In this document: positions 18,198-20,632 of the stretch, piece by piece
Position numbering within the stretch: the first letter of the stretch is position 1
How the letters are laid out: every line of letters starts with the position of its first letter
Source: an uncultured Gammaproteobacteria bacterium
GTDB taxonomy: Bacteria > Pseudomonadota > Gammaproteobacteria > DRJJ01
Reading direction: 5' to 3'
NCBI GenBank assembly: GCA_947258795.1
Contig: CAMYJU010000008.1
Location: 62,001 to 126,000 of the forward strand
Length of the DNA: 64,000 bases
Translations under genes and position numbers: made by a program
The notes under the pieces: generated by a model
Databases searched by the model: none
What the model saw: the letters and a program-made list of their open reading frames with translations, nothing else
What the model was told of the DNA's origin: nothing

Positions 18198-19733
18198 TCA
18201 AGCTTTCCCGTAACCTCCACCACCCGGCGTCATCACCTCCAGCCTGTCACCCGCGTTCACCTGCAAGCTGAATTTGCCGGGTAACGGCTCGTTGTTCAAT
18301 CGATTCGTACCGGACTGCCCCGCTCCGCCACCCCGGATTCCCCAGGGCGGGTGGCGTCGGCGTTCACTGAGCATGGTCACACTGGTTGGCATCAGGAATT
18401 CATATTCCCGCACCAGACCGTCACCACCAGGCCGTTGACCATGCCCGCCTGAGTGCCTGCGTATCGCATAGCGATGCAGACGCAACGGGAATTTCATCTC
18501 CAGCACCTCGATCGGCGTATTCAGAGTATTGGTCATATGCGTCTGCACCGCACTCAGACCACCACCAAGCTGTCCGGCACCCATACCGCCGCCGATAGTT
18601 TCGTAGTAATCCCACGGCTGTTGCGCATCGGCGCTGCCCATGGCCAGGTTATTCATACTGCCCTGACTGGCTGCCGGGATACGTTCCGGTATCGCACCGG
18701 CCAGCGCACCGCATAACACATCGACCATACGCGTAGACGTCTCGACATTACCGGCCGCCACCGCGGCCGGTCTTTGCGCGTTGACCAGACAGGCTGGCGC
18801 TACCTTCAGGCTGATCGGGCGAAAACTGCCGGCACAGGCCGGGGTATTCTCCGGCACCAGGCAGCGAAACACGTAATAAACCGCCGCCGCTGTCACCGAC
18901 AACGGGCAATTGATGTTACCTTCGACCTGTGCGGCCGTGCCGCTAAAGTCCACCTCGATATCGTGACCTTTAACCGTGACGGTCACCCGGATCGCGATAT
19001 CCGTATTGCCGAGGCCATCGTCATCCATCAGGTCTTCGAAGCTGTAACTGCCGTCCGGTATCCTGTTCAGTTCACTGCGTGCCAGTTTCTCCGCATAGTT
19101 GTTCAGCTCGATCAAGGCGCAGGAAAACGCGTTCGTTCCGTTTGAGACAACCAGCTCTTGCAAGCGGGCCAGACCCGTACGATTGGCACTGATCTGTGCA
19201 GCGAAATCACCCTGCGACTGTTCAGGATTACGCAGGCAGGCCAGCAGGCCGGTCATGATCTCCTGGTTCAGTTCGCCGGCTCGTAGCAGGTGTACCGGGC
19301 CGATCACACAACCTTCCTCGGCCAGGGTGCGCGATAGCGGCATGGACCCTGGTGAGGCCGCACCGATATCAGCATGATGGGCACGATTGGCGACAAATCC
19401 GGTCAATTGCTGTTGTGCAAACAGTGGCGCGATCACGGTCACATCAGGCAGATGAGTGCCACCGAGATAGGGATCGTTCAGCATGATCATATCGCCTGCG
19501 CACCAGTCGATCTGACCGACGATATCGGCCATGGCGTAGGCCATACTGCCCAGATGTACCGGGATATGCGCCGCCTGGGCGCATAATTCGCCGTGATGAT
19601 CGAACACGGCACAGGAGTAATCCAGCCGGTCGCGTATGTTCGGGGAGAACGCGGCACGCCTCAGCACCGCGCCCATTTCATCGCAAATAGCCTGCATACG
19701 GCTGGTGAAAATGCTCAGCTCGATGACATCCAT
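18198..19733 (-). CDS. Hydantoinase B / oxoprolinase-family subunit (orphan HyuB)
   Basis: The 511-residue protein is full length for HyuB, with the family segments ILNDPYLGGTHLPDV, DFSGTAAQVEGNINCP and GGGGYG at the C-terminus. HyuB normally works with HyuA in ATP-dependent opening of N-methylhydantoin or 5-oxoproline rings. No HyuA gene is present: upstream lies a repeat element and a divergent gene, downstream the BON lipoprotein. The ATG at 19733 is preferred over the TTG one codon earlier. The substrate cannot be predicted. Confidence 0.88.
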   Translation of the reverse strand: MDVIELSIFTSRMQAICDEMGAVLRRAAFSPNIRDRLDYSCAVFDHHGELCAQAAHIPVHLGSMAYAMADIVGQIDWCAGDMIMLNDPYLGGTHLPDVTVIAPLFAQQQLTGFVANRAHHADIGAASPGSMPLSRTLAEEGCVIGPVHLLRAGELNQEIMTGLLACLRNPEQSQGDFAAQISANRTGLARLQELVVSNGTNAFSCALIELNNYAEKLARSELNRIPDGSYSFEDLMDDDGLGNTDIAIRVTVTVKGHDIEVDFSGTAAQVEGNINCPLSVTAAAVYYVFRCLVPENTPACAGSFRPISLKVAPACLVNAQRPAAVAAGNVETSTRMVDVLCGALAGAIPERIPAASQGSMNNLAMGSADAQQPWDYYETIGGGMGAGQLGGGLSAVQTHMTNTLNTPIEVLEMKFPLRLHRYAIRRHSGGHGQRPGGDGLVREYEFLMPTSVTMLSERRRHPPWGIRGGGAGQSGTNRLNNEPLPGKFSLQVNAGDRLEVMTPGGGGYGKA

Positions 19734-19744
19734 CAAGCCAGTCT

Positions 19745-19920
19745 AGGGTCTGTTAGCGCCAAGTCAATAGGTTCTGTTGCGTATAAAAAGCGCCAATCAA
19801 GGCGCGAGGAGCGTAGTTTGGTTATTCCAAATGAGCGACGAGCAAGCACAGAATGGCGTTTTTTCAGGCGCAACCCGAAGGTCTGGTGCAGGGCCTGTTG
19901 ACTCGGTGTTAACAGGCCCT
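19745..19920. mobile_element. 176-bp fold-back (MITE-like) repeat with 21-bp imperfect terminal inverted repeats
   Basis: The left end (19745-19765, AGGGTCTGTTAGCGCC...) and right end (19900-19920, ...GTTAACAGGCCCT) are inverted copies matching at 17 of 21 positions, all four differences being transitions. A second inverted pair lies inside (19776-19795 against 19854-19874), and the middle is a TTTGG-TTATT-CCAAA hairpin (19817-19831), so the whole element can fold into one long hairpin. No transposase is encoded. The right end contains a separate hairpin GGGCCTGTT / AACAGGCCC. It fills the gap between hyuB and the urate-oxidase-N gene. Confidence 0.65.
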
Positions 19921-19944
19921 TGCAAAGATATCTACTACGGGTGA

Positions 19945-19972
19945 TTGAAAAACGCGAAGCAATCCCTATAAT
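19945..19972 (+). promoter_or_regulatory. Sigma-70-type promoter for the urate-oxidase-N gene
   Basis: TTGAAA (19945-19950) and a perfect TATAAT (19967-19972) are separated by 16 bases. Transcription would start near 19980, about 60 bases before the ATG, which has AGGGAGAG upstream. Confidence 0.7.
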
Positions 19973-20038
19973 GTCCAAGAAATTTACTCAGGTTTATTAA
20001 GTCTTTTAATAATACAAAACTTACTAGGGAGAGCGCTC

Positions 20039-20632
20039 ATGAATCCACTGAAATCCGTCACCGGTACGATAGTAACCGGTTTTATCCTGGCGATTATCGC
20101 CCTGGCCATTATGGGCTTCGGCAAGATCAACGCACTGAATATGGAAGTCTGGTTCCACGTGATGGCCGGTGTGGTCTGGATCGGACTGCTTTATTACTTT
20201 AACTTTGTACAGGTTCCCGGTGTCGGCCAGGCCCTGGCTGAGGCCGATAGTGGTGGCCCCGGCCCTGCTGCGATCAACAAGTATGTCGCACCGCGTGCAC
20301 TGCTGTGGTTTCGCTGGGGGGCGGTGGTTACCTGGCTGTCCGGTGTCGGCGCACTGCAGAACCTGGCTCCGGGCGGCACCCTGAAAGCCTTTACATTCAG
20401 CGGTGGTATGGAAGTCATCGGCCTGGGCGCATGGCTGGGCACCATTATGCTGTTCAACGTATGGGTACTGATCTGGCCGAACCAGAAGAAAATCCTCGGT
20501 ATCGTTGAGTCCACCCCTGAGGCGATTGCCAAGGCCAAGGTGGTTGCACTGATGGCGTCACGCATCAACACGGTACTGTCCATCCCAATGCTGCTGTGCA
20601 TGGTCGGCTATGGCCATGGTCTGAGCTTCTGA
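20039..20632 (+). CDS. Urate-oxidase N-terminal-domain membrane protein (PuuD-like, without cytochrome domain)
   Basis: This 197-residue inner-membrane protein has about five hydrophobic spans (near 8-28, 36-56, 85-103, 119-143 and 175-192) and matches the membrane domain of PuuD-type urate hydroxylases. The C-terminal cytochrome c domain of full-length PuuD is absent, although soluble cytochromes are encoded elsewhere in the window. Stand-alone versions are common and their substrate is unproven. Conserved His in EVWFHVMAGVVW and Trp/Arg in LLWFRWGAVVTW could bind haem (inference). It has its own promoter and a strong terminator, so it is monocistronic. Confidence 0.8.
   Translation: MNPLKSVTGTIVTGFILAIIALAIMGFGKINALNMEVWFHVMAGVVWIGLLYYFNFVQVPGVGQALAEADSGGPGPAAINKYVAPRALLWFRWGAVVTWLSGVGALQNLAPGGTLKAFTFSGGMEVIGLGAWLGTIMLFNVWVLIWPNQKKILGIVESTPEAIAKAKVVALMASRINTVLSIPMLLCMVGYGHGLSF

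Follow-up and report, generated by a model that had tools for sequence, protein, structure and literature searches.

A probable shortened copy of an IS5-type MITE family with paired hairpins in an uncultured gammaproteobacterium

What kind of element is a 176-bp stretch that can fold back on itself along its whole length between two divergent genes of an uncultured gammaproteobacterium? The stretch occupies positions 19745–19920 of a contig segment of 64,000 nucleotides (hereafter the window), begins with AGGGTCTGTTAGCG and ends with TAACAGGCCCT, and had originally been read from its letters as either a non-autonomous transposable element or a structured RNA repeat kept by selection. Comparison of its ends reproduced the predicted inverted repeat of 17 matches in 21 bp (19745–19765 / 19900–19920), a score reached at no other of the 63,824 starts of 176-nt stretches in the window. 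The terminal repeat extends to 32 bp (19745–19776 on the + strand, 19889–19920 on the − strand) with 25 matches and 7 mismatches. All seven mismatches are transitions, as had been claimed for the shorter repeat, while the further claim that each would allow G-U pairing holds for only three of the four within the 21 bp, the fourth being A·C; over 32 bp, six of the seven would form G-U and one A·C in RNA of the + strand. The right repeat is itself a near-palindrome (19890–19902 / 19908–19920; AGGGCCTGTTGAC / GTTAACAGGCCCT), in line with the second inverted pair described earlier. Predicted RNA folding gave −91.9 kcal/mol for the + strand (shuffles −53.4 ± 4, z −9.6) and −59.4 kcal/mol for the − strand (shuffles −42.4 ± 3.8, z −4.4), with 0 of 200 shuffles as good in either case. 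The proposed central hairpin was likewise confirmed.

The host genome (G000; 42 contigs, 97% complete) contained the window copy and one end-like piece of 29–35 bp on contig 19 only. A covariance model of the central hairpin (hairpin 1), built from 24 sequences including the window copy, matched this genome at one place, and an exact-end pattern gave 3 + 3 matches, the window's two forming the sole pair (reversed control 1 + 1). DNA matches were obtained in 8 of 94 genomes, the host included; a Ca. Thiodiazotropha copy matched over 97 bp (92.8% identity) and a Nevskia copy at 48 of 48 bp. An exact 40-base core was present on four contigs in GTDB, two from a single Nevskia MAG and one each from Hahella and Ca. 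Thiodiazotropha. The exact 17-base end CTAGGGYCTGTTNACAC occurred in 26 of 369 genomes of the class, with zero reversed controls among the matches listed, and genome G349 held 84 + 82 = 166 exact 16-base ends. The hairpin 1 model (E ≤ 1e-4) was found in 78 of the 369 sampled genomes of the class, about a fifth, and in 83 of 398 genomes of the phylum, where 48 matches carried a label from outside the class, 37 of these belonging to family f207; the per-genome copy numbers of both searches are floors, since at most 10 or 11 candidates were scored per genome. The presence of many dispersed copies is true of the family and false of the window's own genome, which has no second full copy. The original prediction had counted the lack of a second copy together with a lack of conservation against itself, and the former was observed in this genome, while conservation elsewhere proved strong.

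Two Azotobacter plasmid records matched locus L003, and the phage collection contained no match to L006. Complete copies were also seen on contigs classed as viral (L093 11136–11402, L095 937–1202, L100 367–629). Several draft contigs have their start in such an end or no more than about 250 bases from one (C6, C45 and C53 of G016; C38, C50, C75, C122 and C188 of G116, where the ends are probably those of an IS), and copy numbers in drafts may therefore be underestimates.

A paired-end scan of the loci returned 67 distinct stretches of 41–311 bp, of which 41 (255–302 bp) were taken as complete; the 26 dropped comprised the window copy, other short derivatives, inner-hairpin matches, one unrelated palindrome and one 311-bp overlap. 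Most complete copies measure 263–268 bp (about 265 bp) and follow one layout: a terminal repeat of about 30 bp, hairpin 1 of about 100 bp with the conserved top TTTGG-loop-CCAAA, a CCCGAAGGG link, hairpin 2 and the second terminal repeat. As the hairpin-1 model matches both hairpins head to head in several genomes, hairpin 2 is an inverted relative of hairpin 1. Four of the five copies from family f207 (L216–L220) fold the same way, L218 being shown without its right end.

Set against this layout, the window element (19746–19919, 174 bp, + strand by the orientation of hairpin 1) carries both ends and hairpin 1 and contains neither hairpin 2 nor a transposase gene. Its hairpin 1 (19776–19874, + strand) aligns to all 99 positions of the model with 91.1 bits (G000:C8:81776-81874), a score that is partly circular as the window copy is among the model's 24 sequences, and the 40 bp at its top (19806–19845, + strand) are identical in the MAGs of Nevskia, Hahella and Ca. 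Thiodiazotropha. Alignment with L006 and others places the junction at 19875–19888 (+ strand), where complete copies hold about 90 bp of hairpin 2. We conclude, with a probability of about 0.85, that the window element is a worn copy, shortened by an internal deletion, of a non-autonomous transposable element (MITE) of the IS5 type. As a single locus it is ordinary and of modest interest alone; the family is of some interest.

Typical family ends read CTA-GGGCCTGTTNACAC, and the 41 complete copies comprise 33 with GGG, one with GGC and seven with GAGCC ends, the latter all from G022. Among the 34 non-GAGCC copies, 28 are flanked by TA on both sides; CTA precedes 20 of them and TAG follows 27, while three of the seven GAGCC-type copies show equal 3-bp TNA flanks; copies within one genome are not independent in these counts. 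The window copy has TA on the left (19744–19745, within CTAG at 19743–19746) and TT instead of the usual TA on the right (19920–19921). We infer a TA target-site duplication from the flanks of the family, since comparison with G001 and G080 yielded no clean single-TA empty site. The G022 variant (L008, L015, L020, L023, L025, L027, L029, L031) combines ends GAGCCTGTC or GAGCCTATC with the same hairpins, which points to one body combined with different IS5-type ends.

The typical MITE ends are also the ends of IS5-family elements of about 810 bp. Analysis of PF01609 loci led to L130, an 806-bp IS with ends TAGGGCCTGTTCACACTAA and a 251-aa transposase that passes PF13340, PF01609 and, from NCBIfam, the IS5 model NF033580 at their cut-offs. 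A search with this protein gave 30 loci in 14 of 369 genomes at E ≤ 1e-20, 11 of which carry TAGGG-pattern ends on both sides and represent nine distinct IS5 copies of 801–863 bp in four genomes (G116, G122, G107, G043), with ends TAGGG(C/G)(C/G)TGTTNACA(C/G)TAA and 0–3 mismatches over both ends; the pairings L188 1143–2289 and L219 506–1738 were set aside as chance. The other 19 loci comprise three close relatives cut by contig ends (L179, L198, L200) and 16 that are at most 38% identical. Four of the 19 (L177, L181, L191, L197) were re-inspected for other ends, the TAGGG pattern being blind to TAGGTTCTGTTGACG ends. In G276, IS ends TAGGTTCTGTTGACGTTT flank the gene on both sides in L181 (1468–2295) and L191 (1340–2165), and two IS ends lie about 1.9 kb apart in L197. 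The MITE of the same genome (L210), with ends TAGGCTCTGTTGACGTTT, shares 17 of 18 bases with these IS ends, and both depart alike from GGGCCTGTTNACAC, the usual MITE end of other genomes. This same-genome match is the strongest sign of a putative partnership in trans, and it raised our confidence in the MITE reading to the value given above.

In general, IS5-family elements (NF033580; PF13340 + PF01609; G116, G122, G107, G043, G276) resemble the MITE in their ends, TAGGG(C/G)(C/G)TGTTNACAC or, in G276, the variant given above, and in their TA flanks, several at CTAG; the left repeat of the window copy starts with GGGTCTGTT, compared with GGGCCTGTT in the elements of G116. They differ in carrying a transposase, in that the two hairpins were not seen in them, and in that the end likeness stops after about 16–20 bp. 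A transposase with matching ends, which the original prediction had suggested looking for, therefore exists in this IS family and stands beside the MITE in two genomes, G276 and G122. We propose that an IS5-family transposase acting in trans would recognise the ends of the element and move it, with insertion at C-TA-G presumably duplicating the TA; the element has probably moved by borrowing an IS5-type enzyme. The non-autonomous transposable element of the original prediction is borne out by copies in many genomes, flanks that are mostly TA/TA and IS5-family elements with matching ends.

Several observations fit this MITE reading less well. No L130-like transposase was detected at E ≤ 1e-20 in the copy-rich genomes G349, G209 and G016 or in the window's genome, where the partner may have been lost. 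In G122, where IS and MITE are both present, their ends differ by one base (GGGCGTG vs GGGCCTG), and G116, which has the best-fitting IS ends, was not among the hairpin-positive genomes of the class search. The failure to find a clean empty site, the TT on the right of the window copy and the identity of its hairpin top with copies in other genera also count against the reading. G292, whose L177 (1303–2168) has IS5-type ends CTAGGTTCTGTGCACAAA / TAGGTTCTGTGCACAAA, is another genome not listed by the hairpin search of the class, and no transposase with GAGCC-type ends was seen in four PF01609 loci of G022 (L147, L154, L161, L164).

IS630 elements target TA at CTAG and were considered as an alternative partner. 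PF13358 was unmatched in 8 of 11 genomes (G000, G349, G209, G333, G016, G081, G034, G204), and among the PF13358 loci of the remaining three (G116, G122, G022) paired ends were found in L130 only, where they belong to the neighbouring IS5 gene; in L139, only one end of this kind, carrying one mismatch, lies next to the end of a contig. A 1,357-bp end pair in G349 was likewise rejected as an autonomous element, as it encloses a chromosomal gene, which we take to be RadC, and not a transposase.

The question of why the fold persists was addressed with 24 complete copies, the window copy excluded. In this alignment, 94.4% of cells were paired, compared with 38–42% in slid controls, and the terminal repeats of about 30 bp reached 95.5%. 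Compensatory change was observed in 75 of 88 stem pairs (0 of 500 shuffles), with 410 doubly changed cells versus 111 ± 8.8 after shuffling. Both the derivation of the structure from this very alignment and the origin of some rows in a single genome work in favour of the pairing result, although the covariation margin is far larger than these warnings allow for. Conserved pairing, which the original prediction had asked about, is therefore evident, and double changes of this kind are what a transcribed RNA with a selected + strand fold would produce, either throughout the family or, after co-option, at the window site only. RNA tolerates G·U but not A·C on the functional strand. The alignment contained 1905 Watson-Crick, 81 G·U and 58 A·C cells, 19 of the G·U at one apical pair and the ratio being 62 to 58 without it, and over 41 copies the hand-summed counts were 131 G·U and 150 A·C. 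The strand difference in fold energy over the 41 copies averaged +1.8 kcal/mol (sd 7.1). As G·U is no commoner than A·C and both strands fold alike, the pairing is best seen as a property of the DNA and not of an RNA, and the structured RNA of the original prediction was rejected at the family level, with a weak possibility left for the window copy. The latter is an outlier, with 10 G·U to 1 A·C (two-sided p 0.012) and a + strand that folds better by 32 kcal/mol, outside the range of −13 to +20 covered by the 41 other copies, one of its ten G·U being the apical pair common in the family. Over 42 copies a p of 0.012 amounts to about 0.5, and no RNA function is claimed for this copy. Moreover, Rfam gave no match up to E 1 at window positions 19600–20060; in four loci that hold complete copies its matches up to E 0.1 were all tRNAs, and no + strand promoter-like site lies upstream of the element within the scanned positions 19500–20100. 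An RNA reading, for the family or the window site, is in our view very unlikely.

For the inner palindromes, which do not seem to come from the IS, we favour maintenance at the level of DNA: template switching would most likely correct each arm from the other, and copies forming DNA hairpins or cruciforms would most likely spread or survive better. A bolder version regards the family as class-crossing mobile palindromes, in which inner hairpins and ends would be recognised as folded DNA, the hairpin or cruciform would be the selected or self-repairing unit, and the IS5-type ends would have been added or borrowed, perhaps repeatedly. Three end versions around the same body (GGGCCTG, GGCTCTG, GAGCCTG), double changes with few G·U intermediates and arms that change in step on both strands are consistent with this idea, which we put forward tentatively and consider doubtful. 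Another explanation, in which a non-DDE factor recognises the palindrome as single-stranded DNA or cruciform, as RAYT does with REP, and the IS5-like ends are convergent or acquired, would account for the REPIN-like arrangement of two inverted facing hairpins, for strand-neutral covariation and for copy-rich genomes (G349, G209, G016) without a matching IS5 transposase at the cut-off used. The ends are, however, common to IS5-family elements, in G276 the two kinds of end vary jointly, and ends-only derivatives without hairpins recur, which makes this explanation very improbable. That the stretch is not mobile at all, being host sequence that folds back by chance or else a terminator, might be argued from its being the sole hairpin copy in its genome and from the left end occurring in G001 without the rest; but the matches to Ca. 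Thiodiazotropha and Nevskia and the exact 40-base core in three other genera largely refute it, no T-run follows the right hairpin in the window sequence, and the hairpin-model score, although partly circular, also opposes it, so that it can be virtually dismissed.

In G001, of the same genus, both neighbouring genes are kept in the same order, while the element body is missing and the left end alone remains, the intergenic sequence reading CTAGGG-CTGT-AG--CCAAGTCAA followed by the right flank. Because this left end is shared beyond the family consensus, it is likeliest, judging from aligned bases, that the element, or at least its left end, was present before the window species and G001 parted. 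Against an old age, copies in other genera share the 40 bp of hairpin 1 without a difference, an identity that sits badly with an old, decaying insertion. The window copy is now probably immobile, given its diverged ends, its TT right flank and the failure to detect a close relative of the partner transposase in its genome.

At the window, the element separates a gene for hydantoinase B/oxoprolinase (18198–19736, − strand), whose start codon lies within about 10 bp of it, from a divergent gene with a Urate_ox_N match on its right (20039–20632, + strand). Two promoter-like sites were found in the scanned sequence, compared with 0.8 ± 0.9 in shuffles. A good candidate site for the Urate_ox_N-match gene lies outside the element (19945–19972), and a weaker predicted one, TTGACT-16-TAGACT, which agrees with the consensus at 9 of 12 bases, falls within the left repeat and faces the hydantoinase gene (19740–19767, − strand). 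Both hexamers of the latter are unchanged in G001, all 12 positions being kept where 4 of 28 differ, which is not significant (p ~0.09, by hand); this candidate pair may be one cause of the left end's retention. The site ends about 6 bases ahead of the hydantoinase ATG and, if a promoter, would give a leaderless message.

Among known systems, the Correia, ERIC, RUP and Nezha MITEs were compared by general features, not by sequence. Like the present family, these are short and gene-free, with terminal repeats, a TA-type site and hairpin potential; the present family is set apart by two inverted related palindromes, strong cross-class covariation and IS5-type ends. REPINs and BIMEs with RAYT transposases likewise contain two palindromes in inverted orientation. 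They differ from our family, which has terminal inverted repeats of about 30 bp, TA flanks and hairpins of about 100 bp rather than about 35 bp. TIMEs share mobilisation in trans and differ in their Tn3 ends and 5-bp duplication. TIMEs are described as Tn3-derived miniature elements (PMC4133298). No published description of the family was found in the PMC literature, nor any paper with the end and core strings; ISfinder and most subscription journals lay outside this scope and may hold one. The accessible parts of PMC10969869 and PMC4853749 do not describe the window element, and a short-string match in that of PMC5710167 is a primer. The present IS5-type MITEs form a widespread and apparently unnamed family whose DNA fold of three stems is conserved. 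Bacterial MITEs are generally regarded as young repeats confined to particular genomes. Here, a layout of about 265 bp with three long stems persists across many families, from two classes or more, although its sequence changes, and it changes in pairs. The family offers a testable case for DNA-level maintenance of palindromes, by template-switch repair or cruciform recognition, versus RNA selection, and the hairpin covariance model a means of finding such repeats.

Some smaller elements were observed alongside. In G349, complete copies adjoin end-like family remnants (L112 ~550–590, L124 ~750–790), as if ends attract insertions. G204 carries an ends-only element of about 30 bp, CTA-GGGCCTGTTAACACTATGCGAACAGGCCC-TA, at four sites that differ in contig and in flanks (L059 101–133, L237 1484–1516, L238 1484–1516, L239 1502–1534); in L238, the upstream gene apparently takes its stop codon from the TAG of this element. 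G080, whose identity in this region is only about 70%, has neither the mini-hairpin nor CTAG. Finally, window positions 19890–19920 and the piece on contig 19 of the same genome (L002 1501–1535) have in common the loop GAYTCRGT and a few flanking bases, and the window's right end and this piece may form a two-member mini-hairpin family of their own genome.
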